From the NCBI RefSeq assembly GCF_019649055.1, contig NW_026570487.1, positions 1-64,000 on the forward strand: a stretch of 64,000 nt of DNA, in the 5' to 3' direction. The stretch's first letter is position 1; each line of letters opens with the position of its first letter. The stretch is from Paramacrobiotus metropolitanus. Its lineage: Eukaryota; Tardigrada; Eutardigrada; Parachela; Macrobiotidae. A program made the translations under genes and the position numbers. Below, piece after piece: positions 1,736-61,832 of the stretch. Under the pieces are notes generated by a model. It ran no database searches and was not told the DNA's origin. It saw only the letters and a list, made by a program, of their open reading frames with translations.

Positions 1736-1739
1736 TTCG

Positions 1740-2219
1740 ACTGGGATTTAGGTTGTCGTTGATCCACCGGGGACACTATTGGTGTCTACACGCGGCGGTG
1801 ATGAGGTTCTGTCCAGCCTCGGTAGGTCTACTTCGTCTTGTGGGTTGACCTCCGAGGGTCGGTGTGGACTTAGTCATTTTGCCGGGGCTAATGACCCTGG
1901 TAGCCCGGATGGAACTTCCATAACCGAGTGATTCGCCTCTGGCTGGTTAGCTACTCCGTCCATCAACGATTCGGCGGTTTCCACCGGGTATGTCCGGCTT
2001 GCTATCCGTTCTTCCATGGATGGTTGACCTTCTCGTAGGGTTAAGAGGTTGTATTGCATGTTGAGGAACGTACGCGATCCGGTTACAGTTCGTGCCGGTT
2101 ATCGCTGGAAGAGGTCCGCTTCCTGCTGCAGACAGTAGGGGGGTACCTGTGCCTCCAAGGGTACTGCTTCCCAGTCTTCGAAGTACTCCGTTACTTCGTC
2201 GGTCGGAGCCTCCGGCCGT
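1740..2219 (-). pseudogene. Broken linker upstream of the protease
   Basis: In the frame shared by Gag and protease, this stretch reads as plausible acidic coding sequence (for example EVTEYFEDWEAVPLEA and EERIASRTYPVETAESL). It is interrupted by a TAA near 2,099, a TGA at 1,874-1,876 and a TAA near 1,750. I recognise no domain. It most likely joined the Gag tail to the protease in the intact element. Confidence 0.45.
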
Positions 2220-29759: not shown

Positions 29760-32163
29760 ATGGCCCCACGAGTTTTCCCGTGGAACAGCGTGAACGTGTT
29801 GGGCGATGACGGTCTCTTTCGTTATGGACGAGTGGTGGATGTGGCGGAGCAGGGTCTGTATATCGACTTCCTCTGAGACAATCGCCGACATGAGTTCACG
29901 CCGTTTGAGCGGATTTGTCACAATTATGACAACCGATATTTGGACCGAAACGGTATGGCCCGGATGAGTCCCATACCTAAACTACCCGCAGAAGTCCTAA
30001 TGCGTGAGAGTGTCTCCGGTGCGTGGACGTGGTTCCCCGCGGAATTGGCCATTCGGGCCAGCGAAATCAGGGACTCCAGTTACAGTGTGGTCATCATCAA
30101 CCGCGGGAAACCGGAGGAATATGCGGATGTTATTCCCATGATACGTATTCGCTGGAAGACGTCATCCACTGATCGGCGGACTCTGTTTGGATACGAGTAT
30201 CGCGAACACAGTGTAAATTCGTTCAACCGCGTGGAGAAAGGGACATTCGTCAAGGGAAGTATTACGCTGTCGGACGGGTATCCCCCGGGATTGGTTACGG
30301 CAGCGCTGCAACAACAGAAGCGACAAGTGATTTCCAGTTTCATATTCACTGGGCAAGCTGTAGGCGTGGAGATTGTGGACGGCTGTGTGGTGTACATTCT
30401 TCGCCGATCTGATGCTGGTGCGGAACCCGACAATACTCTGTTGAATTGGGAACTGGTAAGGAAGATAAGAGACTGTATATTACATGTGTGCATGTGTGCC
30501 AGTACTTCGATGTATCTTAAAACCCGAACATCTTGAGTACACTCGTACGGTTTTAACTTCAATCACAGTCCCTCCTTCAGAATTTTTGTTTAAAGATCCT
30601 GCTTCTGTGAAAAATTAGCTCTTCCGACTCACATGGTTGTGTGGCGCAGTCACCAAACAGTCCTGATTATGGAAAATTATTATTTGTAGAGTTTTGTGCA
30701 CTAAATAAATTGGAACTCGTGTGTGATCGGAGTTGTTATCCGTGTACTAACAATGTTCGTTCTTTGAGCCACACCGAGGAACCTAACGTTGAATGAGATT
30801 TTCTTTAGGAAAATCTTCACAGGCTCTACGCTGCGTTGATTGATTCCATTTCACGAATGCGAGAGCAATTAGAACAGCTATCAGGACTGAGTGAAGTTGC
30901 TGTGTTGCCGCTGGAATTGTGGACGGAAGTCTTCTCGTATCTGGACACTGGGACGCAGACTAAACTGCGCTCTGTGTGTCCAACATGGAACGCCCTCCTG
31001 GATTCAAAGTGTTTGAGAGCGAATCTTGTTCTTGATAGCAGCTCGGCATTTGCCAATTCAGATCATAAGTGTAGGCCAATGTATCTTCTGATCGCAGCTC
31101 TCTTCAAGTTTTCCTGTTCCGCGCACTACATTGCTGTAGTTGATAATCCCCGATGGCCGTGGATAGGTGACGTGGGTGCCTCGGAAGTGTTCCACGTTAT
31201 TAACTTCATTGCACGGCGCAGTAGCGCCACTGTACTGACGGCTGTTTTCTTGGTTGGACTGCATTTCTGTCTGCTGAGAAGCCGGTATAACGAACACCGG
31301 ACGCTTCATTCGTCTCTTGCTGGTCACGCCGGAAGCACTCTCCGGAAGCGCGGTATGATATGTCGCGGTCTTCCATGTGACAACGTCCATATTGCAAACT
31401 GCACTATCGCTTTGGAATGCCTGGAGTTCAGCAATCGCAATGGACGCGATCGCTTTTCGCTTTCTGCCAAGATTCTCGTGCATGAGCAACACGTCACTGG
31501 CGATTTTGCCAGCGCACTGTGGAGTGCCTTGGAAGCGGGATTGTCAGCCCCACGCCCCATGGAGCTGCATCGCTTGGCTAAATGGTTATCACTGCACGCA
31601 CACGGCGTGCAAACTTTGCATGCTCGAAGATGTGTGACCTTTGTCTGCAAGTTAAGTTTGCACGGACCAGGCATGTGTACGAACTTATTTTTTTCACTAT
31701 GCTACTCAGGGTAATCCATTTTCGAGTTACTAATGCCTTATGAAACTCTGAAGCGTTACTTGCTACACAAAACGCGTGTAACTCAGGTAACTCTTTAACA
31801 CACATGTACTGTATGTTACAACGTAGCGTAGCGCGGTATAACTTGAGACTTTGTTTTATCAATACAAGAACAGCGTAACTCGCCTGCACCCTGTAACGCT
31901 TTGCTCCAACGGTGTGTAACTCTCCATATTATAATCTGCTGATGTCTGTAACGGGCACCAAACGCAGTAACGAAAAGCTTTGCGATATCACGGTATTCTT
32001 GTTGCAGACGCTGTGTGCGACGCAGACGGCGGATCCGCGTTCAGCGCTGCATTACCGCGGGAAGGAGTGGTGTGAGGACGGTTTGAAGGGTTTGAAGGTA
32101 CAGAAGCTATCGCGTGTGGCGCAGCATTTCCTCATCCAGCTGATGGGTGCCTTGCCAACTTAG
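29760..32163 (+). pseudogene. F-box family member with one TGA and a lost donor
   Basis: Exon 1, 29,760-30,455 (232 codons), begins near-consensus: NSVNVLGDDGLFRYGRVVDVAEQGLYIDFL. It then has TGA at 29,874-29,876 exactly where relatives have Cys (FFC.GRR), and is otherwise open to a GTAAGG donor. Exon 2, 30,809-31,653 (acceptor TTCTTTAG), has the F-box LPLELWTEVFSYLDTGTQTKLRSVCPTW and the leucine-rich middle. It ends TGC AAG followed by TTAAGT, where relatives have AAG|GT. Last exon 32,008-32,163 has TADPRSALHYRGKEWCEDGL and a TAG stop. Only these two defects separate it from an intact gene, so it is a young pseudogene or a gene with unusual decoding. By family, an SCF adaptor. Confidence 0.75.
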
Positions 32164-36513: not shown

Positions 36514-36779
36514 GGCCTAGACTCCAATTCTGACTCTGATTCTGACTACTCAAAGTCTGACTGTGACCGCTCAAAGTCTGACTCTGAAGGTTTCTTAGGT
36601 TTCTTAATAGGTTTCTTAGGTTTCTTAGGTTTTTTAGTTTTCTTAGGTTTCTTAGGTTTCTTAAATTATTCTTTCGTTAGTCAGTCAGAGTCAGAGTTTA
36701 GACAGTCAGAGTCAGACTTTGAGTAGTCAGAGTCAGAGTTTGAGCGGTCAGAGTCTGAGTCAGAGCTTGAGCGCGGGCC
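36514..36779. mobile_element. 266-bp element: GTCAGAGTC arms, TTTCTTAGG core
   Basis: The left end GGCCTAGACTCCAATTCTGA is mirrored by the right end (GGCCCGCGCTCAAGCTCTGA). Both arms are arrays of CTGACTC/AGTCAGAG units: left about 36,525-36,590, right about 36,680-36,765. The centre (36,588-36,665) is TTTCTTAGG repeated. It lies exactly where the homology between the two serpin 5' flanks begins (36,780). It has no coding capacity. Confidence 0.6.
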
Positions 36780-38103
36780 ATTTTGAAGCAGTAAAAGTTT
36801 TTCGATATGTGATATTAAAGACTCTTGAAACTGATCTTTTGCTTAATTCACGGTACTGCTTCATTCCAGAACGAGAATCAGGCAAATAGATGGATAATAG
36901 GTACCGTTTAGACTTTTGTGTGACTGCCTATAATAGCTTATGTGGGCAGCGATCGTGCGGAGGAAATTCGCTGTGGTCTCCGATCTGTGCGGAGTTCGCC
37001 GTTCTCATGGGTTATGTTGGTGCAAAAGGAGAGACTCGCCCACAAATGGCGGATTTACTGGGATTAGGCAAAGACTACACTGTGGACGATTTTTGTGCTT
37101 TGCTGACCGAGATGAAAAGGAATGCGGATCAAAACCAAGCGCCCCCGAATTGTATTTTTCCAGATTTTCTTAATGATTTACTTCTATCAATAATTTACTT
37201 CTGTTCGTATTTTGAGAACCTTTCATGCTTTTACAGCTCCTGTTCAAAACTGCAGACTACTCCTAACCACAGCAGAATTTATTGAAGAAGATTATCCTCC
37301 CAACGCCGATTACACCGACACTCTCCGCACATTATTTAACACCGTATGCCAACCTGTTCGCTTCCGCACCGCACCCTCTGAAGCTGTTCAACGCATCAAT
37401 GAATTTGTGGAGAATCACACATCCGGAACTATTCGCGATACACTGGCTCTTTCCGACATAGACAAAGATACCGCATTCATACTGATTAGTTCGGTGTACT
37501 TTGAAGCGGAATGAGATCATCGATTTTTTGAGGAGCACACGGTGAAGAAACCTTTCACCCTGACCGATGGCGGCCAGGTGATGGTGGATACCATGCATGT
37601 GTTGACGCGGTGTGGGTATTACGAGAGTAAGGAACTGGGAGGAGCGCGCTTTCTGCAGTTGTGGTACGGTGACGAACACTCCAGCGCGTGTTTCATTCTC
37701 CCGGGAAAGAATGCCTTTTCAGCCACGTGGACACCTGGTTCAGCGCTGTCGGACCTGCAGAGAGCCTTGACGCCCTCATTGTTGCAAAGAGCTCTGGATT
37801 CTCTCCAGCCAATCTCTTACGGAACCATACAATTACCAAAGTTTTGCATTGAACACAACATCGACCTGGATAGCACACTGCAGAATCTGGGTATGCGGTC
37901 AGCTTTTTCGGAAAGAGCGGACTTCTCCGGGATATCGTCGCGTTCCCTCTGCATTGACAAGATTAAACAGAAGGTGTATATCGGTAAGCAGAAATCGGCA
38001 AACGAGAACTTTCCCCAGCCCTGTAAAATCATTGCGATTCCAGCTTGGTCGGTAAGCTCACAACGCCCGCCCCAATGGCGCCGTTGCATAAGTTCGAACT
38101 CGT

Positions 38104-38112
38104 CATTTTTAT
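38104..38112. repeat. Left target-site duplication CATTTTTAT
   Basis: The 9-bp CATTTTTAT occurs once in the empty site of serpin copy 1 (minus strand, about 26,974-26,982). Here it is followed at once by element sequence. The second copy is at 51,335-51,343. Confidence 0.85.
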
Positions 38113-38120
38113 CGCGTCCG

Positions 38121-38260
38121 ATCACTTCGGCCGCGCTACATTTCGGCCGCACAGGTTCACTTCGGCCAGCGTTCATTTCGGCCGTGGCTCACTTCGGCCA
38201 ACACTCAATTCGGCCAACGCTCATTTCGGCAACTGGATGTTTCGACCATCACAGGTTTTC
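38121..38260. repeat. Left subterminal array of TTCGGCC
   Basis: Six perfect TTCGGCC and two imperfect copies, about 16-19 bp apart, usually occur as CA(C/T)TTCGGCC. Confidence 0.85.
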
Positions 38261-38261
38261 T

Positions 38262-38500
38262 TGGGTTTCCAACGTTTTCTAGGTTTTCCTATGTTTCCTT
38301 ATGTTTTCTTAGGTTATTTAGGTTTGTTAGGGTTTCTTAGGTTTCTTAGGTTTATTTAGGTTTTTTGAGTTTCTTTCCTTTAGGTTTTTTGAGTTCTTTC
38401 CTTTCTTAGGTTTTCTTAGGTTTCTTAGGTCGTCTTAGGTTTTCTTAGATTTTCTTTTGTTTTCATAGGTATTCTCAGGTTATCCTTACTTAGGTGATTC
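38262..38500. repeat. Degenerate TTTCTTAGG array
   Basis: Repeated TTTCTTAGG/TTTTCTTAGGT units lie just inside the left terminal repeat. The same sequence, often inverted as CCTAAGAAA, occurs at 17.3, 36.6, 55.5-55.8 and 57.2-57.6 kb. Confidence 0.8.
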
Positions 38501-41115
38501 AGGATACGAAGGTTTTTTCTAATTTTTATGTTTACCCAAGTGTCGTACCGTGAAGTTTTCAGTACCCTCCCGTGACGACAGACTTCGTGAGATTCTGTCA
38601 TCCGCCTTATAGAGAGTGAGCATGAGTTGGGACAAAACTTAACGTATGTATGGTAATATGAGCAATGGTGTGCGAAGTTAAGTGGTAATTAACCAGTTTG
38701 TGGGCTGTAAGCATTGGGCTTGCAAGCATGGAGGGTAAGTGCGTGTAACTTCATGTGTGTACTTCAGCTGAAAAACAATAAATAATAATTGGAAATAACT
38801 TTCCAATTTTCCTGCTCCAGTTAATGGCTCACTTCTTAATTATCCAATGTCCATTTGGTTAATCAGCTAACTACAGTAATTAAAAATCTCACCGCGATAA
38901 AGCTTTCCGCAATATCATCCAGTCCGTTACTGATCCGACCGAGAAATAATCTCCTTGAAAACTGCAAAATCCTTGTACCGGCGGTCCACAATATGCATAA
39001 ATTAACCATTACAAATGCGTCTAATTTCGGTTCAGAAGTTCTGCGTCCTTTTTCTACTGGCTGAATTTCTTGTTATGCTCCAACGGAAATCTGTGAGATC
39101 AGTGGGATCAGTGGGATCTCGTTACTTTTGTTAGCATTTATAAGTGTTCTCATTTGAACGATTACGAAACAGATGCGCTATTTAACGAAATAAGTCCCGT
39201 ATAATTATAGGAATTCTGATCTCTTGTCAGTTCGGATCGGCAATACGGTATTGCCGATCCGACTGAGAAAAGATCAATTCCTCGATGACGCCTGATATTG
39301 TTCCCATCGCAATCTCATATGGGAGATTCCGGTGGACACTCCGCGTTTGTAGTTTTGTTGCTGTTGACTATTTGTTAATTGTTTCCGAACTCAACATTTT
39401 CCGCGAAATGATTCACTTGGTCCCCGTCTGCCAAGTTCAGATTAGCAGCTTGCCGGGGTGGCATTCACATAAAACCGCAGAAGCGCCCATAGATCGCCCG
39501 CGCGCGCAGGGAATTGGATACCAGATGCGCTCGATCGGCAGTGGTCAAATCGCTGCCTTGCGCGAGCAAGATCAAAACCTGGGAGTTTTGTTACATAGTT
39601 TTGTTACATAGTTTGACATATATTATTTTAAGATTGAGATTGATTCTGATGAAGAAAACAATTCTGCATCAAGCAATTAGCAGAACTGCAATTATTAAAG
39701 AAAATTCCGCGAATTTTCTCAGACAGTTAAAGAAGAAAATTTGATAAATATGAAACAAACTAAACCAACTTTGACAAATACTATAACTTGAATTACCTAA
39801 TTAAATTCCAAGTACTCTTTACTGCTGGTGTCGAGAACTTTAAAGATGCGTGTCGAGTTTTCGTTTTTTACAGTGTTTGGTCAACGTATCGTTTTGTGGC
39901 TTTAAGACTTTCATGCAAATAGTTAAACTTTAAGTTGTCGAAAAAATTTGCAGAATTATGCCGAATTCGTTCTTGGTGTTACTACTGACAACCTGTGCAT
40001 TGTTTGATTCGAGTTTCCTTCTGTAAATCGTATTGCATTTCCAATAAATTAATGAATCTTGCGAATGCATAAATGCACAATTTCAACGCATACATGCTAA
40101 ATCATTTCGTGATTTCTCTGCTTGCGCCATGCATTACGCACAATTTAATTTTGCTTAGATACTTGCGGTTGCAAACTGCAGTGTATTATCCTGCGACGTC
40201 CAATACCTAAAACGAACCAAACATTTGCTTATCAGAAATTTGATTTTGAGATTTCGACGGGTGTAATTTAGCTTAGCTACAAATAAGGCTTTCTTGATCT
40301 ACGTAGTGCAGTCAACATAAATACCAAAGGGCAGCAATAACAAAATCTAGTAACGATATGCAAGTTGCGGGTGTGCGTACAACATATTACCGCGTGTATG
40401 CTGAACAGCAATTTTGACTGCAGTCCGTACATCAAGTGCTAGCGCCCTACCAACTCATTCAAGATGCTCGGTACAAGCAGTGCCGGATTTTATTGATTTC
40501 TTGTACATTGTTTGAATAATTTTATATAAGTGTGACAGGAAATCAATATAAAAATCTGAACAGATTTGAGGTTAGTTCAGAGATGAGTGGAAACTACAGG
40601 TTGCGTTTGAAATTAGAGGCAGACCGTTGGATGCTAAGCTGCAGTTGTATGTATGAATATTGTTTCGATAATTTCTTGCTTATTAGCTTATTTTATAAAT
40701 CGTATGCTATTTAACAACGTGATGGTATTACGATTTCTCACACAATCCAGTTTGCGGTTTTCTGCTTGCGCTTTTCTATATATTTTTGACTTTATTCAGA
40801 ATATGAAAATTTCCACTGTCATTGCACGTACCTGCCTTATATAACCCATAACTGTGCTAGCAATCTAGTGCACTACTGCTATTGCATATTGGTTATTATT
40901 ATAGATATAGATCAGATGTCTATTAGCAGCAGTGACCTTAAAGTTGCAAAAGCTACTGATAATTACGGAACTTGAAAATTAGGTATTTGAACGAATTATA
41001 AAACAAGAAAAAGGCCTGAGAGCAAATTCTCGGAAACTTAGAAAGATTGCTTACATATGTTTTTTTTTGCAAAAGAAACCACCTAGTTTCGAAAACACTA
41101 AATTTTTGGTTGCAC
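38501..41115. other. AT-rich interior of the 13-kb element
   Basis: I see no gene and no last exon of the following F-box gene. One notable feature is the perfect hairpin at 39,233-39,261. Confidence 0.5.
39218..39277. repeat. Perfect 14-bp hairpin with imperfect extension
   Basis: CGGATCGGCAATAC (39,233-39,246), a single G, then its exact inverse (39,248-39,261). The arms continue imperfectly to about 39,218 and 39,277 (GATCTCTTGTCAGT against ACTGAGAAAAGATC). Confidence 0.8.
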
Positions 41116-42801
41116 TTAATCGTTAAAGAGTTTAATTGCCGCAATCCACCCGCAAAGGCGATGAACCTGTTCATCGCTGGGATCAGAGAGTTTCTCCTTC
41201 AAATCGCGCCCAAGGTCACATGGCATTTTGGTTGTCCCTTTATGGATTAGGCCAAGCAATTCAAGCAGTCGTGGATCAAGAACGAAAGATATCTCGCCGT
41301 CCAAAATGGCAGTACATTTATTCCAGTAAATGTCCTTGCACGGCAAAATAGCGCACGCAGATTTTAAATCTGCAACACGAATATCTCCTACATTCTCCAA
41401 AGGTGGCGTGGAAATCAGATATCCATTTTCGTCGAAAGAAAACCCGCTTTGGTGTATAAAACGGCATTCCACACCAAAAAAACGGATATTTTTCAGTCTG
41501 AGTTCTTCTTCTTGTAACATAGCGCAGCAGCAAACTGCTTCAAACGCTTGCAACAAACTGCTACCAGTCATCCAACCACCTGGATCCGTAACAATAACTT
41601 CTTGGGTTGAGGGTGAAAAGCAGTAGAATAAAGGTGCGAACAGGAAGTAGATACGAAGGGATTCCATCCTTTCGGCCTCAGCCATTGTGTATAGTTTGAT
41701 AAACCGTGTTATCAAAGGAGAAGTAAGGATTGTGTTCCATTTGAATCACACTGCACGCAGTTTTGCCTGGACAATTGTTGGCAAATGCGACAATATCTCT
41801 AGAAGCAGATCAGAAGCAATAGTGGATATTCCGTTGGATAAACAGATTGCTCCTGATGATTCTGTTTTCAGGATCGCTTGTCTTCGAGCGTGATCCAGGA
41901 GGTTTTTAGAAAATAAGTTGAAAATTTCCTGGAAATATTTAACACATTCACACATTCATGCAAGAAGGAGTAAGACACACTCTTTTCAAAATGGAAGAGA
42001 AGAAGTTTCGTGAAACGTGTCAACACATTCAAGCGAGCAAGAAAAAAATACTTGTATAATAAATAGCGTGTATGCAGCTAACTAAACACTGCCTGCAGAA
42101 ACTGCTGCCGAGCAGCACGTGTTTACCTGTTCAATCCACATATCCTGAAGGTACGAGTTCGTGTTTTTGAAACTGCGTTGAAGGTAAATCATGCACCCAT
42201 TCCTAATTTCAATGCCCGCAACGCCCGTGCTAGGTAAAGGATGGATGGTACGGTTGAATGCAGGGATAGCATCTGTGAAATACGAAGAACAGCCACCAGG
42301 CAATAAAGAAGCTCTCTTTTTAAAAGTTCCTTCCTTAACGGGATTTTGCTTCGCAGTTCTCTGGGGGTTACCGTTGTCGAAAGTAGTAGCATCAAGGTCT
42401 TGCTTCCAGCGGACGTGCGTCAAGGGCACAAGTTTCACGTTTTCCTCATTTTCTCCGCAGTATATGGCTACTAAATTGTAACTGTGGTGTTCGAAGCCGC
42501 GAGATAAATTGAACAGCTTGGCGGGACTCCATTTCAACGGGCCAGACATACTGTCGCGCACCAGTATCTCAACTGGCGGAAGTTCCTCTGATGCCGCGTA
42601 TCTCATGGCGAGGTCAACTCCATCCAGATATTTTTCGTTCAAAAAAATTCGGTTGAAATGTATAAGTTCTTGCCGGCGCCCATCACAAAAAAAGTCGATT
42701 AACAACCCGTCACGTGCGACATCCACTACGCGGCCATGGAAAACGCGACCGTCAGAATCCAAAACATTCACACTGTTCCAGTTGTATGATAGAGACTCCA
42801 T
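41116..42801 (-). pseudogene. F-box family member inside the 13-kb element, last exon missing
   Basis: Exon 1, 42,801-42,127 (225 codons, donor GTAAAC), is open and well conserved: SVNVLDSDGRVFHGRVVDVARDGLLIDFFCDGRRQELIHFNRIF, starting at MESLSYNW. Exon 2, 41,928-41,116 (acceptor TTTCCAG), carries an F-box of the form DLLLEILSHLPTIVQAKLRAV. TGA at 41,748-41,746 stands where relatives have Cys (LRAVC..W), then the frame stays open for 199 codons to a TAA. The family's last exon was not found within 1 kb downstream. Apart from the TGA both exons are uninterrupted. The gene is diverged from its neighbours outside the element. It could be captured cargo or a nested older insertion. Confidence 0.75.
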
Positions 42802-43534
42802 TTCTGTACCTGCATGAAAAACCAAAAAGCGAACCGGAGAGATTTTTCTTGAATAAACTTTATCAAGTCGCAAAGCGGGTTACAGTAGAAATTTAAATGG
42901 GGAAATTAAAATCAAGAACACATGGCGAGCCGTTGCGGTGCAGCAGATCGTATTACTTTGAAATTTTCACTTTGAATTTAAGTAAGCCTTTTTACCTTTT
43001 TTCTGCAAATTAACGCCAAATATTATTGTTATACCTGCTTTGCAGACGTATTGATAATGTTTTGCAACTGACATTCCAACGAAACGCTAATTCTTCTCAC
43101 GTATTGAAATTTATTTGCAGTTCCAACAACGAATACATTAAGGTCTCTTACTGAATCTTTTTTTTGCAGGAATCCAAGCGATGCTCCGAAGTTCTTGATC
43201 ACTTACCACAAAAAAGTATTTTAAAAAACTATATTCAACACTGTTAAATCAACGTGAGAGAAAACAACAGAAGTGTGGAATGTTTGCAAATTCCAAACCA
43301 ATGACAAAATGTTTTACGCCGCTCTGACAGACTGAAGTGTTGCACACGAAACTAAAATGCGTCACGATTTCTGAGCAGGCAGTTTTTGTACGGTGTGATA
43401 TATGAACTGAACTGATTTCACTTTTGCTCGAGTCCTCTAAACAGAAAACGTCGCGCTTCTGATTTCGAGGCTAACACATTTTTCGTTCTCGAAAAAACGA
43501 CTCGACGTTGAAACCCCTCACGTTCGACGTTTAA
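42802..43534. other. 5' flank of the F-box copy
   Basis: No gene recognised; presumed promoter side of the minus-strand F-box gene. Confidence 0.4.
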
Positions 43535-43698
43535 AGCCTCCCAGCCTCCCGGCCTCCCGGCCTCCCGGCCTCCCGGCCTCCCGGCCTCCCAGCCTCCCGG
43601 CCTCCCGGCCTCCCAGCCTCCCGGCCTCCCGGCCTCCCGGCCTCCCAGCCTCCCAGCCTCCCAGCCTCCCAGACTCCCAGCCTCCCAGTCTCCCGGCC
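43535..43698. repeat. 8-bp minisatellite (GCCTCCCG/A)
   Basis: About 20 tandem 8-bp units of GCCTCCC(G/A). The minus strand is very G-rich (GGGAGGCC), a pattern able to form G-quadruplexes. ORFs through it (Gly/Arg/Glu repeats) are artefacts of the repeat. Confidence 0.9.
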
Positions 43699-44134
43699 TT
43701 CGCCCCGATAGCGCGCCGAATTAAGCGAGCGCGCGAGCCTCGCCCGGATGTTAAGTAGGCCTGGAACTGCTCGTGGGTTAACGAGTCCAGTTCCGACGGG
43801 TCCGAGCTAAGACGCTGTTGTCTGAACAAGAACAAATTAGAATTTCATAAACACCAAATTAGAATTTCATAAACAGTTTTGCCACACAGTTGTTTACTGT
43901 AAAGCTGTACAGGTCATCGGTCACTTCTGGTTAACACAACATAACTATTGTGCTGTATAGTGACTATACAGTAAAAACAGACATGCATAAATATAAACGT
44001 TCACATAAATATGTGTATATATGTAAATTTATGTAAATAAATAAATGTATATCTATGATGTATCATAAATAAATGTACACATAAGTTTTAGTGTACACTC
44101 TATATTTATATACGTACACAGATGTACGTTACGT

Positions 44135-44710
44135 TTAAAAATTGTGCGTTAGCCAAGGCAACCTACCGTAAAAGCGCAGTCCCCCCCGCCCAGGCGCGAC
44201 CTGGGCGTCCTTTCCGAAGAAGAATTCGGTGTGGGTCATGGAGTCCAGGTCCATGGGGGCGTCGCAAGTCGCGTACACCTGCTTCTTGGGCATCTTGCTG
44301 GGCAGCGGCACAAACACGTGTTCGTTCTGGTGCGTAGCGCGCCCCGTGGGACGTCTACGTAGTGGCAGCCAGCGATAACCGGCTTACAAGTGTCGGCCGG
44401 CTTCGCGGGGAGGCCCTTCAATTTTGCACTAATGGCGGTAAAGAAATGGACTCACTAACACCGAAGATTGTTGATAGCACGAGCTGGCGTTAAGAGGCAC
44501 CGTGGGCAACCTGCGGCCGTTGAGTATTGTCAGAGGGGGGCCTGGCGACGTAATCGGGCGTTGTGGATGGTCTTCCCGGCGAAGGGGTCGGAGGAGTTGA
44601 AGACGGTGGTGGCCGGCCTGGCGCTGTCGACAGCTTCGCCCTCCGGAAAGGGCATGGAGCGCTACTGCGCGTCGCTGGTGTTGCCAAATTTGGTCGTGGG
44701 CTGAGGAACG
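44135..44710 (-). pseudogene. Left-arm gene fragment, possibly SAXO-like
   Basis: Two exon-like GC-rich blocks. About 44,704-44,490 contains MPFPEGEAVD and FNSSDPF, with frame breaks. About 44,435-44,180 contains GLPAKPADTCKPVIAGCHY, then FVPLPSKMPKKQVYA and DSMTHTEFFFGKDAQVA, also frame-broken, and ends at a GTAGGTTG donor. The short motifs (THxxDYVxKP, KPADxCKP, TxxNDF) recall the repeated microtubule-binding motifs of stabilizer-of-axonemal-microtubules (SAXO/STOP) proteins. That match is weak and from memory of the family pattern. The outer exons are missing, so this is a captured fragment. Confidence 0.35.
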
Positions 44711-45114
44711 GCCGCTGGTGTTACCACGACTTCCCGTCGCATCTCCGTTCAATGCTTAAAGTCTGCTAAAAAGCGCAAGCAGATAAATCATAAGGCAGCC
44801 AGCCAAGCATAATGTAGCAAATACAAAAACTCAATGGATATTTAGCCGAAGCACGCAATCGCGCAAGATAAAATAACAAAATTTATTTGTGCTAGCAGAA
44901 GACAGCAGAAAGGGAAAAACTGAAAATAAATGATGAGAGATTTTGTTATTTTGTCTTGCGCGATTGCGTGCTTTGGCTGAATATTTATTGAGTTTTTGTG
45001 TTTGCTAAATTATGTTTGGCTGGCTGCCTTAAGATTAAGTTGCTTGCCCATGCGCTTTGTAGCGGACTTCAAGCATTGGCCGGGGATGCGGCAGGAAGTC
45101 GGGGTGACAATCAA

Positions 45115-45660
45115 GGCCATTTCTCTCTCTGCCCACGGCCAAGTTTGGCAGCCCCATCGATGCGCAGTCGCGCTTCATGCCCTTCCCGGAGGGCGAAGCG
45201 GACGACAGGACGGCCACCGCCGTCTTCCACTCCAACGACCCCTTCGTCGTCGAGACCACCCACAAGACCCCGCTACGTCGCCAAGCCCCTCTCCGACAAG
45301 ACCCAACGGCCGCAGGTCGTTCACGAGCCACACACGGTGCCCCCTGGACGCCAGCTCGTGCTATCAATAGAACTACGGTAGCCGGCATCCTCGGTGTCAG
45401 TGAGTCCATTCCTTGACCGCCACTACTGCAAAACTGCAGGGCATCCCCGCGAAGCCGGCCGACAGTTGCAAGCCGGCTATCGCTGGCTGCCGCTACGCAG
45501 ACGTTCCCACGGGGCGCACTACGCACCAGAACGACTTCGTGATGGTGCCGCTGCCCAGTAAGGAGCCCAAGAAGGTGCAGGTGTACGCGCCCTTCCGCCC
45601 ACGCTCGGCCGGCTGGGCGGGGGGAGGGGTGCGCTTCTGCGGTAGGTTGTCTTGGCTAAC
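45115..45660 (+). pseudogene. Right-arm gene fragment, inverse copy of 44.1-44.7 kb
   Basis: The same two blocks in better condition: about 45,150-45,380 with RFMPFPEGEADDRTATAVFH and, one frame away, RYVAKPLSDKTQRPQ; and 45,413-45,645 with GIPAKPADSCKPAIAGCRY and QNDFVMVPLPSKEPKK, ending at a GTAGGTTG donor. Compared with the left arm it lacks the MDLDSMTHTEFF segment. One frameshift separates the two readable parts of the first block. Codon use is GC-rich, unlike the AT-rich surroundings. Confidence 0.4.
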
Positions 45661-46074
45661 GCACAGCTTTTGAACTTAACGTACATCTGTGTACGTATAT
45701 AAAATAGGCTATGTAATACAACTTTCTACGCTCATATAATTTTTGTGTACATATAGGATACATATATTTATGATACATATAATTATATTCTCTTATTTAC
45801 ATATATGTACAAATATTTATGTGCACGTTTATTTAAGCATATCTATTTGTACTGTATAGTGTATAGACAGATATACCATATGACTGCGTAAGCATATCTA
45901 TATATTATATAATTCTCTGTTTTGCTGCACTACTATTTTCTGACCTACATATTACTTATTCACACAACCTGCTGGCCGACAGGTAGTTAACCGACAGATC
46001 GCTTTTCGATGATTTTGCTGCCCGCCGCTTCGCTGAAACTGTTTTGTGTACCGACAGCTTATTCACCGGTCTGG

Positions 46075-46240
46075 CTTGTATTTCTCTCCTGTTCCTCCCT
46101 GGTGTTCAACCCTGGTGTTCCACCCTCCTGTTCCACCCATCTGTTCTAGCCTAGTGTTCCACCCCTCCTGATCGCCCCTTCTGTTCCACCCTGCTGTTCC
46201 ACCCTGTTGTTCCACCCTGTTGTTCCACCCTGCTGTTCCT
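46075..46240. repeat. 13-bp minisatellite (CTGTTCCACCCTG)
   Basis: About a dozen tandem, partly degenerate units of (C/T)TGTTCCACCCTG, most regular at 46,180-46,235. Confidence 0.85.
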
Positions 46241-48330
46241 GCCTAGTGTGCTAAGGGCGGTGCCATCTGCTAATAAGTTTCCAACCTAATGCGTATTGTT
46301 AGAGCTCGCCCGTTAAATATCGAGTATTTCAAAGTTCGATTTACGTTTCGTATTCTGTGTTATGAAGCTGGTCGATCAGTTGAAACTCCTTCCATTTCAG
46401 TTTGCAAAAAAACGTTTTCTTTTGTAAAAAAACATGGGAGAACGGATTCCGCAAAATTCATACAGAAAAAACGCCATCTGGATGGTTTTTGACTCGCTGA
46501 CCACTACAAAAATTTTTTACCAAACCCGCCAACGACAAATGTTCACTTTTAATGATTTTTAACAAGCTATTTTTATTTTTTAGTCAAGACAAGAAAAATT
46601 ATAAGAAAAATCAGTTACGGTCACCGATACATCAAAGATCGAGCAGTTTTCTGGAGCGTACTGCTTGCTGGAGCTACAGTGGGTTCGAAGATATTCTGTA
46701 GGCAGTCCGAAGATATTCTATTGTCAGATTTATCACAAAGTACTTGTACGACGATAAAAACTTGTATGAGTATTCTACACGTTAGATACACCTTTAAAAA
46801 TCTATGTTTCTGAAAGCCAAACACGTGAAATGAGCACTGATATATATGGGTAAGGCGGTCAGTGTTACCGACTTCGCAAAAATTCGAAACGAAGCGGAAT
46901 CTATCGAACGTGTAGGGAGAACAGAAGAAATGTTACATACCGTCCTAAACCAAATTGGTGATAAAGATTTAACGTGTTCGTTGATGTGATCGCTTCCGAC
47001 GCGGAAAAGTTCACGAAAATCACGATAATTATAGCAGAAAGCCGATGTAAGAGTGGCGGCCGAGCAAGTTCAAATCAAAATTGACACCAAGTGAAAATAA
47101 TAACTCCATTTACGGTAAATGTCATCTGATCAGTCGAAAAGAGCCATTAAGAAGTGAAAAGCATAAGTAAAATTCATGAATTGGTGCAGAACCAAAATAA
47201 AAAATATCACGCATTGTTCTAAATAAATTAAAATTATTTTAAAAAAACTTCGTGTCTGTAAAAGCCTAGAATGGGGTTGCTCTAGTTAATTAATAGCAGA
47301 AAATGGAGGCTGTAAGAAACGGGCCATCATGATTTTCTTATAGTTAACTGCCTTCTACTGTTTAATTCGAAACATGAAACGTAAACGTTACATACGAAAG
47401 GGAAATGCGGTGCCGGCTATTTCCAACAGCAGCTTTCTTATGATGTATATACGGTGTAGGTTATGGGATATTAATAATCCCGGGATGCAAAGACAGCAGC
47501 GGTCCGTGATGATACCTATCTAGCCGCATGAAGGGCATGCGGGGACAGCCGGGGATGATGCAGCGGCAACCGATGCAGCAGTTTATCCTTTTTCGGGCTA
47601 TTTCGATACCCTGGAGTCCATGCAGCCCCTGATGCGCATGATGCCCAATTAGCCGGTCGCTTTTACTTCCGCTGTGCAGCAAAACCAGCAACATCACCCT
47701 TAACCCAGCTGATCAGAATTTCCATCCGTCCCAATCCGCAGTTCCGTCCCACCTGCCCAGTGCCCAGTTTTGCGGTCAGGGAGTAAGGAAGTATTTTACA
47801 GCATTTATTTATTTCGCGAGTGACAAAGCACATGCTTGTACCAGTATAGCTGTCAAACATACTAAATATTTCAGAAATTATTATAAAACGCTAAACAAAG
47901 AGTAAAGTACATTTAACTATTTGTTATTTATACGAAAATTACTATGGCCAAGTCCTTTCACTCCCGTTTTTTATAGCCACCCTCTTCTGCTGTTAATTAA
48001 ATAGAGGAACCTTATTCTGGGTTTTTACAGGCACACAGTTTTCTTAATTTTTGATATTTTTATTTTATTTGCGACGACGCGTGATATTTTTTATGTTGAC
48101 TCTACACAATTTCATGAATTTCACTTATGTTTTCCACTAAATTAATGGGTCTGTTCGACTGCTCAGACTGCCGACCGATCATAAACCTTTTACGGGTTTA
48201 TTACTTTACTTGATGTAAATTTTAAACAGCACTTGCTCGACCGCAACTCTTACATCGACTTTCTGCTGTAATTTATGTGGCCTTTTAGTTGTTTGGAATA
48301 GCCGGCACCGCCTTTTCCCTTCGGCTTTGT
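46241..48330. other. Unassigned interior of the 13-kb element
   Basis: No gene recognised. Short minus frames near 47,460-47,860 have no domain. From about 48,330 the sequence becomes TTTC-rich and grades into the next minisatellite. Confidence 0.45.
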
Positions 48331-48589
48331 ACTATACGTTTCGTGTTTCATTTTTCGAATTTTTAGTTTCTCGTTTCTTATTTTTTAAGTTTCAGTGTTT
48401 CAATGTTTCATTGTGCCGAATTTACTGTTTCTGATTTACCATTTTGTAGGTATCCGCTTCGTGCTTCGCGTTTCGTATTCATGTGTGTTTCAATGATTCA
48501 GTTCGTAGTTCGAAGTGCATGTTTCTTGTTTCATGTATGTTTTTGTTTCAGGTTCAGTTGCGTAGTTTTAGTAATCATGTTTAGTTTCA

Positions 48590-49520
48590 GACTTTCAGTG
48601 TTCGTGTTTCACTGTTTCACTGTTTCAAAGTTATCACGTTAAGTTTCAGACTTTCATTGTTTGGTGTACACGTGTACATGTGTTTCACTGTTTCAAAGTT
48701 ATCAGGTTTAGTTTCAGACTTTCAGTGTTTGTGATTCACTGTTTCACTGTTTCAGAGTTATCATGTGGTGTACACGTGTTTCACTGTTTCACTGCTTCAA
48801 AGTTATCATGTTTAGTTTCAGACTGTCAGTGTTCGGTGTACACGTGTTTCAGTGTTTCACTGTTTCAAAGTTATCATGTTTAGTTTCAGACTGTCAGTGT
48901 TCGGTGTACCCGTGTTTCAGTGTTTCACTGTTTCAAAGTTATCATGTTTAGTTTTAGACTTTCAGTGTTCAGTGTACACGGGTACACGTGTTTCAGTGTT
49001 TCGCTGTTTCAAAGTTATCATGTTTAGTTTCAGACTTTCAGTGTTCAGTGTACACGGGTACACGTGTTTCACTGTTTCAAAGTTATCACGTTTAGTTTCA
49101 GACTTTCAGTGTTCGGTGTACACGGGTAACACGTGTTTCAGTGTTTCACTGTTTCAAAGTTATCATGTTTAGTTTCAGACTTTCAGTGTTCAGTGTACAC
49201 GGGTACACGTGTTTCAGTGTTTCACTGTTTCAAAGTTATCATGTTTAGTTTCAGACTTTCAGTGTTCAGTGTACACGGGTAAAGTGTTTCACTGTTTCAA
49301 AGTTATAATGTTTAGTTTCAGACTGTCAGTGTTCGGTGTACACGTGTTTCAGTGTTTCACCGTTTCAAAGTTATCATGTGTAGTTTCAGATTTTCGGTGT
49401 TCGGTGTACACGGGTACACGTGTTTCAGTGTTTCACTGTTCCAAAGTTATCATGTTTAGTTTCAGGCTTTCAGTGTTCGGTGCACGCGTGTACACGTGTT
49501 TCAGTGTTTCACTGTTTCAT
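48590..49520. repeat. ~68-77-bp minisatellite, about 12 copies
   Basis: The unit runs GTTTCA(C/G)TGTTTCAAAGTT, then ATCATGTTTAGTTTCAGACT, then GTCAGTGTTCGGTGTACACG. Some units have an extra GGGTACACG. Long ORFs across it (Cys/Phe/Ser-rich, 'FQSYHV') simply follow the repeat and are not genes. Confidence 0.9.
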
Positions 49521-50167
49521 AATGCTTGTTTCCTGTTTCCGAGTGTACACGCTTCTTTTCGTATTTTTCAGCTTTTTATCAGCTTCGTGCTTCGCCTTTC
49601 ATCTTTCACGTCTCGTGCATTGTTTCAGTGTTCCACTGTTTCAAAGTGCTTGTTTCCTAATTAAAATATTCACATTTGATCTTTTCGCATTTCATGCAAC
49701 ACTGCGCGGATTTTAATTTCGTAGGTTTAGTTATCAGAAGGAGCTTCAGAGTGTCGTTGTTTCAGTGTTTCAATGCACTAGTTTCTGGTTTGCGATGTTT
49801 TACCAGGTTTATGCTTCGTTGCGAAACGCAGCACATTAAGATGCTTCGCTGCACTCCGGGTGTTAATTTATGTCTATTGTTTTATCACCTTATCTTGACT
49901 GCGATGTGTGTGTAAAACGACTGGTTGTGTACAACTCTTGCTATAACGCACTAAAAAAAGTTTTGTCCCAGCTCGGGTAATCTATGGCCTTATAACGTTT
50001 GACGAGGTGTTAATCAAAGCAATCGGGAAAGTAGGACATGATGGTGATATTAACTTCAAAAATTGCTCAAACAAATTGTGCGTGCAAAACCAAATAGAAA
50101 GTTAGAAACCGATCAAAATCTTGCGTATAACGAGAACTTGCAAGGTACAGAATAAAAGTTTTGGTAA
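49521..50167. other. Spacer between minisatellite and nuclease ORF
   Basis: No gene recognised. There is no reverse-transcriptase motif upstream of the nuclease-region ORF. Confidence 0.45.
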
Positions 50168-51142
50168 ACCTTATTAGCTCTCCCAGCCTATTTGGCTTCG
50201 ATTCATTCCGCTTCCGGACTCGTGTCGCTGCTGCTTACCAATCACGCGGCCGTGGACGCCACTAACGCAAAGGAATTGTGGAAAGCGAAAAGTGGTCAGA
50301 CAGAACTCCCGGAATCGATCTGCCTGAAGTCGCAGCGCGCATGGGATGTGTCGTTCTGCACCATGTCGCTGTCGGCACTGCTGAAAGTCTTCCGGGACGA
50401 TGAAACCAACCGAGCCCGCCTCCTTGCCCAGTCGAAACCGGAAGCAGGTATGCTGCTGATAAATGCTTTGCCGTCGGCGCATATCGGAAATCTCTTAGAT
50501 GACGACACCCTCAAGATATCAGTCGGACTCAGGCTGGGCGCAGTCATATGTGAAGCACACGCATGTGCCAAATTCCGCAAGCCTGTAGATGTATACGGCC
50601 ACCATGGACTGTCATGCTCGTTTTCGGCCGGGAGGCATGCACGACACGGTGCTTTGAACAGCATCGTGTGCCGATCATTGGTTTCGGCGGGCATTCCAGC
50701 AAAACTCGAACCTCGTGGCACAACCCATACGTCCGAACGTCGCCCAGACGGATGCACGACCTTTGCCTGGAAACGTGGTATGTGTCTGGCATGGGATGTC
50801 ACCTGCGTCGACACTGTCGCCTCATCCCATACCAAGTCCACTTCCTTAGTTGCCGGATCCACCGCTGCCCAAGCCGAAGACAAGAAAGCCAAACTCTATG
50901 CGTATCTTGTAGGCAGATACATTTTTGCAGCACTAGCCTTTGAAACGTTCGGGCCCTGGGGAAAATCGGCATCTGCTTTAATAAAGGAAATCGGCAAGCG
51001 GCTACAGCAACACACCGGGGAACCTCGCTCACACGAATTCTTACGTCAACGTCTGTCGATCGAAATACAGCGAGGCAACGCGGCTTCCGTGCTGGGGACA
51101 ATGGAAGGCGCGGATAAATTAGAAGAAATTTTGTTGTTGTAG
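50168..51142 (+). CDS. Retroelement C-terminal region with PD-(D/E)xK-type nuclease motifs, 5'-truncated
   Basis: The open frame follows a TAA at 50,165-50,167 and has no start codon at its beginning. It opens with LLALPAYLASIHSASGLV, then RAWD, RARLLAQS and INALPS, then a zinc-knuckle-like region (HAC ... GHHGLSC), RHGALN, and RRPDG followed 15 residues later by the Asp of LAWDVTC. It ends with GNAAS.LGT. The PD-x15-D spacing after a CCHC-like motif is reminiscent of the R2-type restriction-like endonuclease that follows reverse transcriptase in some non-LTR elements. Proteins with this whole pattern are, to my knowledge, common in invertebrate mobile elements. One Cys of the usual CxxC/CxC pair is Phe or Lys here. 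The start matches that of the 55.97-kb copy, so the truncation point may be a domain border. Confidence 0.55.
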   Translation, partial: TLLALPAYLASIHSASGLVSLLLTNHAAVDATNAKELWKAKSGQTELPESICLKSQRAWDVSFCTMSLSALLKVFRDDETNRARLLAQSKPEAGMLLINALPSAHIGNLLDDDTLKISVGLRLGAVICEAHACAKFRKPVDVYGHHGLSCSFSAGRHARHGALNSIVCRSLVSAGIPAKLEPRGTTHTSERRPDGCTTFAWKRGMCLAWDVTCVDTVASSHTKSTSLVAGSTAAQAEDKKAKLYAYLVGRYIFAALAFETFGPWGKSASALIKEIGKRLQQHTGEPRSHEFLRQRLSIEIQRGNAASVLGTMEGADKLEEILLL

Positions 51143-51186
51143 TTCTCTATTTGTTGCCAATTCATGTATTCTAACTGGCTTGTGCT

Positions 51187-51192
51187 AATAAA
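51187..51192 (+). terminator. Poly(A) signal AATAAA
   Basis: AATAAA lies 44 bp after the stop codon of the nuclease-region ORF and just before the right terminal array, so the transcript would end inside the element. Confidence 0.5.
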
Positions 51193-51222
51193 GTGCACCC
51201 TATTTCCGCTGAAATGTACCAT

Positions 51223-51328
51223 GGCCGAACTGAATGACGGCCGAACTGAATTGCGGCCGAAGTGAGTGGCGGCCGAAAAACTTTGGCCGAAATGAGCGCG
51301 GCCGACATAAAAAAGGCCGAAGTGATCG
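51223..51328. repeat. Right subterminal array of GGCCGAA
   Basis: Six perfect GGCCGAA and one GGCCGAC, about 14-17 bp apart, are inverse to the left array. Confidence 0.85.
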
Positions 51329-51334
51329 GTAGCC

Positions 51335-51343
51335 CATTTTTAT
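51335..51343. repeat. Right target-site duplication CATTTTTAT
   Basis: This is the second copy of the 9-bp target. It is followed by AAAGTTCGTCCTGGACGAAGG, minus its last base the direct continuation of the serpin intron seen in copy 1 (AAAGGTCGTCCTGAACGAAG). Confidence 0.85.
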
Positions 51344-51919
51344 AAAGTTCGTCCTGGACGAAGGCTTAACCTAGCTCAACTTCTGTATGTCATTAAGAGC
51401 AACTTAAATGCAAATTATTTTTAAAAAAGCAAATGCTGAGAAAAACGCTTGGCTTGAAGTAAAACGTCGGAAGAATTTACATAGAAAGTCTGTAAGACGG
51501 AAAATGTCTAATCAAACACGCCAAAAAACATGAGCTTGTTTATTGAATATTATGTTTATTTCAGATGTCAATGAAAGAGGAACGGTCGCGTCCGCGGCGA
51601 CCATGGTAAGATACATAAACTGCAGTCTGCCACCCCAGACAAGAGTGGAATTCGCAGCCGATCGACCCTTTATGTTTCTGCTGCGGCACGAAAAAACCGG
51701 CGCCATTTTGTTTATCGGGCATGTTGTTGACCCCTCTGTAAAAAATTATTGATGAAATTGTTAACGACTACATCATGTGAACCATTGTCGGCGTTAATAG
51801 TGTTTCAGTAGTTACAACAGACAAAACATTTGAAATTAATTTTACACTTCGAGAAAATTGATAGAAGTGACTAAAAACAATTTTTATCGTAATGTGCGGT
51901 GTTATGCAAAAACTGAAGA

Positions 51920-55484: not shown

Positions 55485-55820
55485 TTTCTTAGGTTTCTTA
55501 TGTATTTTTAGAATTCTTAGGTAATCTTATGTATTCTTAGGCTTCCTAGCCTTAATATGGTACCTGACGTTTCTTTCATTTCTTACTTGAAGCGTAAAAA
55601 AACCTAAGAAAGATCATTCTACGAAAACTTTTGAAACATAAAAAACCTGAGAAACCAAAGAACCTTATAATGAGAAACCTAAAAAATCTAAAAAACCTGA
55701 GAAACCTAAGAAACCTGAGACACCTAAGAAACCTAAGAAATCTAAGAAATCTAAGAAACCTGAAAAACCTAAAAAACCTAAGAAACCTAAGAAACTTGAG
55801 AACTTTAGAAACCTAATATT
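55485..55820. repeat. Inverted TTTCTTAGG / CCTAAGAAA arrays
   Basis: TTTCTTAGG units run to about 55,550. The inverse CCTAAGAAA/CCTGAGAAA units run from about 55,595 to 55,815. The two halves can pair. Confidence 0.8.
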
Positions 55821-57214: not shown

Positions 57215-57600
57215 TAAGAAACCTAAGAAACCGAGAAAATGTCAATACAATCTAAGAATACTACCTAGGAATTTAACCCAAGAAACCTCAGAATAACGTA
57301 AAAAAAGCCAATTAGTAGGCTCATGTTTTGGAAGGCGAAGCGAATCCGTACCGCTCAAAAGGCGAAGGCGAAGGCTACTCATACTTAACACCAACAATAC
57401 TTTTACAAGTAAACCAATTTTCTGGCTGTATCCGGTTAAACGGCTGCGTCCGTTATGCGAGAAAAAAATACGCAATGGTAAGCTGCAATAAAGAAAGAAA
57501 ATAAGACTGATGTCGACGCAACCTAAGAAACCTAAGAAACCTAAGAACCCTAAGAAACCTGAGACACCTAAGAAACCTACTAAGGAAGTTAGCTGCCATT
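57215..57600. repeat. CCTAAGAAA clusters at the right edge of the 2.6-kb element
   Basis: Short runs of CCTAAGAAA lie at about 57,212-57,235 and 57,520-57,585, on either side of the right terminal repeat. Confidence 0.7.
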
Positions 57601-59737: not shown

Positions 59738-61832
59738 TTACTGGTGTCCTGGCCTGACACGGATATGTTGGACGACTTCGGAGAGGAAATTGTTCTGCAT
59801 TGCGGAAATGAAACACAAAGCAACACGCGACAGGTTCTTCAGCTGCATCTCCTTCCAGCCATCAACGCACCACCGTTTCTCGCGGTAATGTAAGGAAGGA
59901 CGCGGATCTGCTGTGTGGCTGACACACAACATCTGCAAACGATTAATACTGGCTTATGGTAGTGGCCTTTCAACTTTCCAAGCGCTGATGATAATTTATA
60001 TGCAAATTAGTGAAGGATAAAAACATTGGGAGCTGCGTTTTAACGCAAATAAGTGCCTCTATGATCTGAAGGTTCGATCGGAGAAGAATAAACAGTTTGT
60101 TTTCGCTTCGAACGGAATGTTGGCAATTTATGTGCACTTGATGCGTTCTTCTTATACGCATTTTGTTGAAAAAATTCTGCATTAAATTCAGAACGTAAGT
60201 TACATAATGCTGTACTGGATCTAGCTCAGGCTCACCTTGCACATTTCCCGGTCATAAAAGTCCGTGCCGAATTTCGCTGCTAGGCCGTTGACTACAGTTA
60301 ACCACGAAGCAAGCCGGGGGGGTTCGGTGCTTGTCGACACCGGCAAACCAGCTTCCAACGCACTCCACATGGCACACCCGAAATCGCTATCCACCTTCAT
60401 GCCAGCCGTATGGATGTTGGTTTTGAGGTGCAGATATACTGTTTTATCATCGAAAAAGGTATAATCAAGATGCACAGAACAGTTCACAAAGTTGATGTAA
60501 TCACACGCAATTTGGCGGCACGATGTAATGAAGTAGTCGAGCCGGAAAAAGCTGCGGTTACCATCAACATACACCGCCGTCGGCGCTGCTGTCCCAGGCT
60601 GATGAATTTCACAGGCATCATACCGCGCTGCACCGATTCGCAGCCGGCAATGAACACCCACCAAATACAGTGCTTTCAGTCGAACGCAATTGCTGGTTTC
60701 CTGTCCGACATACTGCAACATATCCAGCACTTTAAACACATCGGTGTCCGCTAGTAACCGCCGTCGATCGCATACAATGAGGCGCTGTGAGGATGGGCGG
60801 AGACATTTGAAAATAGGCGCCGTCAAATAGTAAACGAACCGGTCGGGTTGTTTCGCATCGAATTCGGCGCTGCTGACGACAATGTTAGCAGTCAACGACG
60901 GCGAATCCACAATCAAGTCCCACGTGGCGCAGACCAGACGGAGCCGGTTTTGTGTGCAGGTCCCGAGATGGGAAAACGTCTCGCGCCACAATTCCGTCGG
61001 CAGGGCGTTTAGTTCCTCATTGACACCACAGTCGACCAACGGTGTCGTCAGCTCGCAAATCATACGCGGAACGGAATCAAGAAATTCCTTTTGCAATTTC
61101 GCCAAAGGCGGATCCTACAAACAGAATTTTTTTATGGATCCCAAACAAGAAAGAAAGGCCAATTTGAAAGTTAATTACCGCCCAACGCAAGTCTTCGAGT
61201 TGTATGTACCACACATATCCGGTGACCACTTCCACAAAGGGCACGGACGTGCTACTATTCAGAATCTTTAGCAAATGTTCCGCCGGTACAGAGCTTGTAG
61301 GCGCTTTAATACAACGTTTGGCGAACGTGCCCTTCAGAACACTCGATGGCCATGTACTTAAATGCCGCATAACTTCGTTAGAAAGCGATGCCGGACGACC
61401 ATGCTGCGCCCACCAACCGCTCCCCACTCTCCACCGCAGCCGCTCAACGGGGACAATATCCATACACTCCCCGTCCTTTCCCCCTTTAACGATGGCCACA
61501 CCGTATGCGTTGTGACGTGTACCGCCAGGCAGATTAATGATATCAGCGGGACACCATGTCCACGCACCGGAGGGAATTTTCCGTTGCAGCACTTCCACGG
61601 GAACAGATGAAGATGTTTCGGCATAGGCTGTGGCAAGATGTTCTGCGTCTAAAGGTGGTGTCGTGCTGCAGCGGAACACGCGGTGGAACGGGATGAATTC
61701 GCGGCGTTGGTCACGATGGAGAAAATCGATATGCAGCCCCTTGTCCGTCACATCCACGACGCGTCCATAGCGTAACTGGTGGTCGTCAGTGAGAACATCC
61801 ACGCTGCTGGATGAGCGGATTCCGTTATACAT
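59738..61832 (-). CDS. Intact F-box family protein (575 aa)
   Basis: Three exons in phase with GT-AG introns: 61,832-61,179, 61,114-60,236 and 59,932-59,738. Start ATG is at 61,832. Exon 1 (218 codons) has the Tudor/SH3-like core SVDVLTDDHQLRYGRVVDVTDKGLHIDF, then RREFIPFHRVF and a second conserved block with VEVLQRKIPSGAWTWCPADI and MDIVPVERLRW. Exon 2 (293 codons) has the F-box ALPTELWRETFSHLGTCTQNRLRLVCATW (about residues 253-285) and a leucine-rich middle. Exon 3 is SHTADPRPSLHYREKRWCVDG, then LSRVAL and a slightly longer tail. The F-box predicts Skp1 binding within an SCF ubiquitin ligase; the flanking domains would select the target. No stop, frameshift or splice defect was seen, so this is probably the best functional reference for the family. 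Substrate unknown. Confidence 0.85.

Follow-up and report, generated by a model that had tools for sequence, protein, structure and literature searches.

How did one of two serpin paralogues on a tardigrade contig come to have an intron of 13.6 kb, against 0.36 kb in the other? We address this question in a 64,000-nucleotide stretch of Paramacrobiotus metropolitanus DNA (contig NW_026570487.1, positions 1 to 64,000; hereafter the window), where a 13,222-bp insert lies between paired copies of CATTTTTAT in the intron of serpin copy 2. A first-pass annotation of this DNA had read the insert as a single cargo-bearing element with terminal inverted repeats (TIRs). We found that the difference in intron length goes back to insertions stacked one inside another, whose empty sites could be identified. 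Very probably, a small Mutator-like miniature inverted-repeat transposable element (MITE) inserted first, and an unrelated TIR element, here called X and holding about 9.6 kb of other DNA, and a retrotransposon fragment were then nested inside it.

The insertion site in serpin copy 2

The copy-2 intron runs from 37983 to 51564 (13,582 bp) and is preceded by an exon with a Pfam Serpin match (1.7e-26). Subtracting the 13,222 bp and one 9-bp duplication leaves 351 bp, in agreement with the roughly 350 bp first estimated, against 361 bp for the copy-1 intron (minus strand, window 27104-26744). The two copies of CATTTTTAT, at 38104..38112 and 51335..51343, are defined both by the sequence and by alignment with copy 1. 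The copy-1 intron has a single CATTTTTAT, and its alignment to the copy-2 flanks runs through this motif into the bases that follow 51343, which places both junctions where the first-pass annotation had put them and identifies the empty site that it had proposed in the paralogue. A clean single CATTTTTAT in copy 1 would also be expected if the insert had once been present there and had been excised precisely, with no gain in copy 2. Such a loss, however, would have had to remove the insert and one copy of the duplication without a footprint, whereas the gain takes one ordinary insertion, and we regard excision as highly improbable.

An in-frame TGA interrupts each of the serpin copies (37512-37514 in copy 2; 27574-27576, minus strand, in copy 1) in the context YFEAE*DHRFF, a position at which serpins usually have tryptophan. 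Given this stop, both copies may be pseudogenes, in which case constraint on the intron would be relaxed. The copies are also identical over stretches of 212, 97 and 118 bp (37430-37641, 37332-37428 and 51621-51738, compared with copy 1 at 27756-26570); these are mostly exon, and the introns have clearly diverged between the copies. Gene conversion or strong constraint may account for the identical blocks.

A MITE interrupted twice

The insert has mirrored 20-bp ends, as first described. Its left end (the A end) is CGCGT followed by CCGATCACTTCGGCC and its right end (the B end, reversed) is GGCTA followed by CCGATCACTTCGGCC, such that the 15 inner bases are identical and the outer five mostly unlike. 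Six TTCGGCC units at 38126-38215 and six copies of the reverse complement at 51223-51321 form the arrays noted earlier at both edges. Between these ends, MITE sequence is present in three parts, all on the plus strand. The first (38113..38611), of MULE type (MULE, Mutator-like element), comprises the A end, the TTCGGCC array and a AGGTTTTCTT tract; the second (49995..50167) aligns with sibling elements; the third (51205..51334) comprises the GGCCGAA array and the B end. Separating the first two parts is X (38612..49986, plus strand; 11,375 bp), flanked by a perfect 8-bp target duplication, GCCTTATA, that is read directly from the sequence at 38604..38611 and 49987..49994. Separating the second and third is a fragment of about 1.02 kb from a reverse transcriptase (RT)-bearing retrotransposon (50176..51196, plus strand; borders approximate), which lies between ACCTTATT (50168..50175) and ACCCTATT (51197..51204), the two members of an imperfect duplication. 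The extra 12.4 kb thus consists of two separate insertions with target duplications of their own, one perfect and one matching at 7/8 positions. Removing X and the retrotransposon fragment, with one copy kept of each duplication, leaves 810 bp, within the usual range of the family.

Empty inner sites were found in other members of the family, where C-numbers denote assembly contigs and L-numbers fetched loci. Among the 20 loci fetched, 14 were compared as sibling MITEs; the empty site of X is spanned by six of the 14, and that of the retrotransposon fragment likewise by six. The clearest case, C332:38379-39329, is a 951-bp element with a 9/9 duplication, GGAATTCTC, on both sides. It aligns in one piece across both joins to the B end (407/437 joined bases; from the first MITE part the query took in the final 132 bases, of which the last 102 aligned) and has a single ACCGTATT at the retrotransposon site. 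The duplications around X and the retrotransposon fragment, together with these empty sites, show that both landed in this MITE copy. Layering, target duplications (9/9, 8/8 and 7/8) and empty sites are seen for all three insertions. The TIR insertion with a 9-bp duplication stands as first annotated, and the reading of the 13.2 kb as one cargo-bearing element is rejected, since siblings lack both inner inserts, each of which has its own duplication, and other copies mostly measure 0.4-1.6 kb.

The region is repeat-rich, and one could imagine that shared repeats led the assembly to join a MITE, X and F-box DNA that lie apart in the genome. Misjoining would hardly yield three target duplications at the predicted places, however, nor an interior of which much is single copy, and we consider an assembly artefact highly improbable.

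To place the insert within its family, the ends were counted across the assembly. Allowing at most one mismatch, the inner 15-mer occurs 383 times (185 + 198), against 8 (4 + 4) in the reversed control, which rules out chance for the ends; the count takes in some units inside arrays, and 190 element equivalents is therefore an upper guess. Exact A ends number 76 and exact B ends 81, with none of either in the reversed controls, indicating that the five outermost bases do not vary at random. Elements usually bear one end of each type. Pairing each forward end with its nearest facing end, using exact ends alone and leaving many ends unpaired, gave 40 facing pairs within 50 kb (two right ends were used twice): 36 A-B pairs of at most 20 kb, one A-B pair at 46.8 kb and three A-A or B-B pairs. 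Thirty-two of the 36 measure 434-1608 bp; the remaining four measure 2401, 3282, 3556 and, in the window, 13,222 bp. Both the 2401- and the 3282-bp pair contain transposase sequence, and the 3556-bp pair encloses a second element of 918 bp. The proposed genome search for these ends and TTCGGCC arrays thus recovered copies that share the termini of the insert, and the ends hold across the family.

Target duplications in the family are of the size typical of MULEs (8-11 bp). In addition to the 9/9 duplications of the window and of the C332 MITE, 18 of the 20 fetched loci (L071-L088) were scored by their best flanking direct repeat: five loci reach 9/9 and one 8/9, two have 8/8 over 8 bp, three have 7/9 and one has 6/9, and the other six do not exceed 5/9. 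Several longer spans were considered as large family members and set aside. At L069 (9.2 kb) and L070 (7.6 kb) the flanking repeat was never better than 4/9, and neither looks like a single element. The 3556-bp pair was discounted because of the second element inside it. In a 6.0-kb span of L073, one right end and its flank are repeated, and the span looks like a tandem duplication. At this locus (C7:357332-364314), an A end and its flank also recur unchanged at a distance of 5.4 kb, which again suggests tandem duplication.

Relatives with the same ends bear transposase sequence. In L071 (on C1), B and A ends stand 3.28 or 3.55 kb apart and enclose a FLYWCH domain (2.5e-6) and, in separate frames, weak MULE matches (0.12 and 0.021). 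The FLYWCH open reading frame (ORF) is matched by 43 stretches of the assembly, of which 20 contain stops. One match (C332:36157-36672, with three stops) lies between the exact A and B ends of the 2401-bp pair, and another (C80:644481-645044) lies close to an A end. The C80 frame (L098 = C80:643000-646100, at 1059-2045, minus strand) is open for 329 aa beside this A end; it scores above the cut-off for FLYWCH (8.5e-6) and, at 6.8e-5 and 23.7 bits, below the curated cut-off of 27.6 for MULE. Its best homologue, P0121 from the same species, passes both. The presence of decayed FLYWCH-MULE transposase in relatives with the same ends argues that the family is Mutator-like, as do the shared inverted ends and the 9-bp duplication, in line with the affinity first suggested. 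To judge from these frames, the family transposase is present in relatives and is decayed in the copies examined. The earlier remark that no transposase is visible thus applies to the insert and not to the genome.

Taken together, these observations point to the following course of events. A Mutator-like MITE, non-autonomous and about 810 bp long, would have entered the copy-2 intron after the serpin duplication, duplicating CATTTTTAT, with a FLYWCH-MULE transposase supplied in trans from elsewhere in the genome. Later, X, an unrelated TIR element that duplicates 8 bp, would have inserted into the MITE, and the retrotransposon fragment would also have inserted there after the arrival of the MITE. 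X holds roughly 9.6 kb of other sequence, among it an F-box pseudogene. We infer that the MITE was inflated within the serpin intron itself, and the same applies to the identity of the acting transposase and to the route by which the 9.6 kb entered X.

Several observations weigh against this sequence of events. Eight of the 14 siblings fail to align across the X join, and eight of the 14 across the retrotransposon join, their alignments being one-sided or weak; the retrotransposon duplication matches at only 7/8 positions; and no credible duplication was seen at 6 of the 18 loci. None of the three transposase loci has a good duplication (6/9 at best on C1, 2/9 on C332, and on C80 no B end within the 3.1 kb fetched). 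The 9.6-kb block has no visible target duplication of its own, and X bases that siblings possess at its left border are missing here. Finally, all 13 kb might already have been complete before a single jump that left no trace at an earlier site.

In that last case the MITE would have swollen elsewhere, and its outer ends would have carried all 13.2 kb into the intron as one unit. The intact outer ends and CATTTTTAT duplication are consistent with such a move, and the empty paralogue permits arrival in one step. However, neither a second copy of the block nor a further large member flanked by a duplication was found, the next largest exact A-B pair being the 3556-bp one; a single copy is weak evidence here, since cut-and-paste transposition also leaves one copy. 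Both X borders are moreover unique among the matches found: in assembly junction queries, none of 8 other matches at the left border extended beyond it by more than 5 bases, and none of 37 at the right border by more than 1 base. We therefore consider a move of the whole block very unlikely. A giant cargo transposon would be recognised by one large cargo recurring with identical ends at several loci, or by a demonstrable arrival in one step; this block is single copy, and the X borders were found nowhere else. In our nested reading, the locus looks like a finely preserved but ordinary nest, produced by a known process, and not like a new giant cargo transposon.

Element X, its interior and the retrotransposon fragment

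X has imperfect TIRs, GAGAGTGAGCATGAGTTGGGACAAAACTT and CATAGATTACCCGAGCTGGGACAAAACTT. Its left part (38612..38768, plus strand) is common to copies on C116, C232 and C60, and its right part (48570..49986, plus strand) consists of a GTTTCAGT-type minisatellite and the right terminus. These terminal parts recur on C116, C232, C60, C35, C121, C43, C65 and other contigs, including complete copies of 615 bp (C116), 1231 bp (C232), 782 bp (C121), 105 bp (C43) and 102 bp (C65). Four of the six complete copies have perfect 8-bp duplications, namely those in the window, on C232 (CATATTGG), on C43 (TCAGTGAG) and on C65 (GAAGAGGA); the copies on C116 and C121 have none, and their flanks seem shifted. 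Target duplications of 8 bp are a trait of hAT and P elements. Across copies, the termini are constant and the interiors differ.

As a block, the interior of X in the window (38769..48360; right border approximate) occurs once in the assembly. On its minus strand lies an F-box-like pseudogene (41119..42879), made up of an exon at 42085-42879, an F-box part at 41749-41955 and a further part at 41119-41745, with an in-frame TGA at 41746-41748. Taken alone, the F-box part falls below the cut-off (E 0.037), and relatives at 30809-31711 and 60224-61114 pass. The ORF at 42085-42879 was considered as a transposase and rejected, as it belongs to this family of 144 scored matches in the genome (from 923 first-look candidates) and to a gene with an F-box part. 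Five other family matches lie on the same contig (29772, 61200, 65274, 68170 and 76612), together with further weak local pieces, and F-box-like genes form a cluster around the serpins (24-62 kb of the window and C267:65274-77256). Identity to the ten best relatives is 32-40%, which gives no sign of a recent donor, and the search of the assembly turned up no close donor copy. A homologue search with the exon gave 583 candidates and none at E 0.001, a result of little weight because it also missed the relatives within the genome.

Other features of the block are a large inverted repeat, the 1.9-kb palindrome at 43953..45870, both arms of which match C120:275113-275940 (at 83% and 75%) and which has relatives on C59 as well; a stretch at 46735..48349 with inverted arms (47027-47428 and 47963-48349) and relatives on C3, C75, C206 and C51; and a 125-bp piece at 46407-46533 related to tandem arrays on C177, C48, C7 and C17. 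The partial F-box gene, gene-fragment palindrome and minisatellites listed in the first-pass annotation are thus each located in the insert. At the left border of the block, the continuation of X present in siblings is found nowhere else in the window at up to 4 mismatches; its absence could reflect a deletion that accompanied an insertion, or X may have taken the DNA up otherwise.

One such route would make X itself the carrier, having acquired about 9.6 kb of host DNA (the F-box gene with its intron, and repeats) at another site and then delivered it to the MITE in a single transposition, which would leave our explanation of the outer layers intact. The kept termini and variable interiors of X copies fit this, as does the perfect 8-bp duplication around the whole of X. 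The gene pieces, moreover, occupy distinct exon-like frames, and the gap between them is also present in their relatives; to judge from this, the gene was probably moved as DNA. On the other side, the other complete copies measure only 102-1231 bp, several of the inner repeats may be separate later insertions, and no X transposase was seen, no search aimed at one having been made. Transport of the block by X is possible, if doubtful. A stronger version, in which X is a gene-capturing, 8-bp-duplicating tardigrade transposon that brought the 9.6 kb with its intron-bearing F-box gene into a MULE, and in which the doubly nested block might also be mobile through its outer ends, we consider unlikely. 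If true, X and the MULE would form a two-tier vehicle that shuffles members of a local gene cluster.

The retrotransposon fragment carries a C-terminal ORF of 324 aa (50168-51139), the one first called nuclease-like and found here to be linked to RT. It has 928 homologues at E 0.001, some of which, among the 120 listed, have an RT domain upstream; longer homologues carry RVT_1, for which P0016 and P0012 score below the cut-off. A search of solved structures with this ORF returned one chance match (E 0.54). Presumably, it resembles the restriction-like endonucleases of retrotransposons.

Tracts of the AGGTTTTCTT / AGAAACCTA group, which are MITE-family-like, also occur outside the insert, at 36588-36663, 55486-55816 and 57520-57579; a tract of the same group is listed at 38253-38481.

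Comparison with known Mutator-like systems

Pack-MULEs are elements in which host gene sequence lies between MULE ends. Host gene sequence lies between MULE ends here too, but it sits within X, an element that has its target duplication within the MULE, and not directly between the MULE parts, and no close donor for it was found in the assembly. Intact outer TIRs with a target duplication are no proof that the enclosed DNA travelled jointly. Nesting as such is common: as given in part of one report, nested transposable element insertions are present in 36% and 41% of candidate coding MULEs in maize and rice (PMC3903597). Those are coding elements of plants, whereas the element here is a MITE grown about 16-fold. 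Phantom MULEs, as described in part of their report (PMC6446971), have a MULE transposase, FLYWCH in some, 8-10 bp duplications and a minisatellite in some. They resemble the present family in domain make-up and duplication size, the features on which the two were compared; the string 'tardigrad' has no occurrence in the main text of that paper.

The closest parallel is Tm1, a Mutator/Foldback family of root-knot nematodes. In the portion of the Tm1 report considered here (PMC3169594), 7-bp asymmetric outer motifs lie outside TIRs of 13-15-bp tandem repeats, duplications are 9 bp, most copies are MITE-like and few have a FLYWCH-MULE transposase; one copy encloses a nested, unrelated 936-bp element, and an empty paralogous site was shown. 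Tm1 also includes a histone-hairpin class. The tardigrade family shares the asymmetric outer motifs (5 bp here), TIRs built of tandem repeats (about 16 bp here), 9-bp duplications, a MITE-like majority and few FLYWCH-MULE copies, and the window adds nested insertion and an empty paralogous site. No description of this tardigrade family was found among the matches listed in open-licence literature. The present case differs from Tm1, so far as that source describes it, in phylum, in sequence and in the size of the nested inserts, 11.4 kb and 1.0 kb against 936 bp. With it, a tardigrade genome is seen to contain a Mutator/Foldback family of the Tm1 type, some relatives of which bear transposase.

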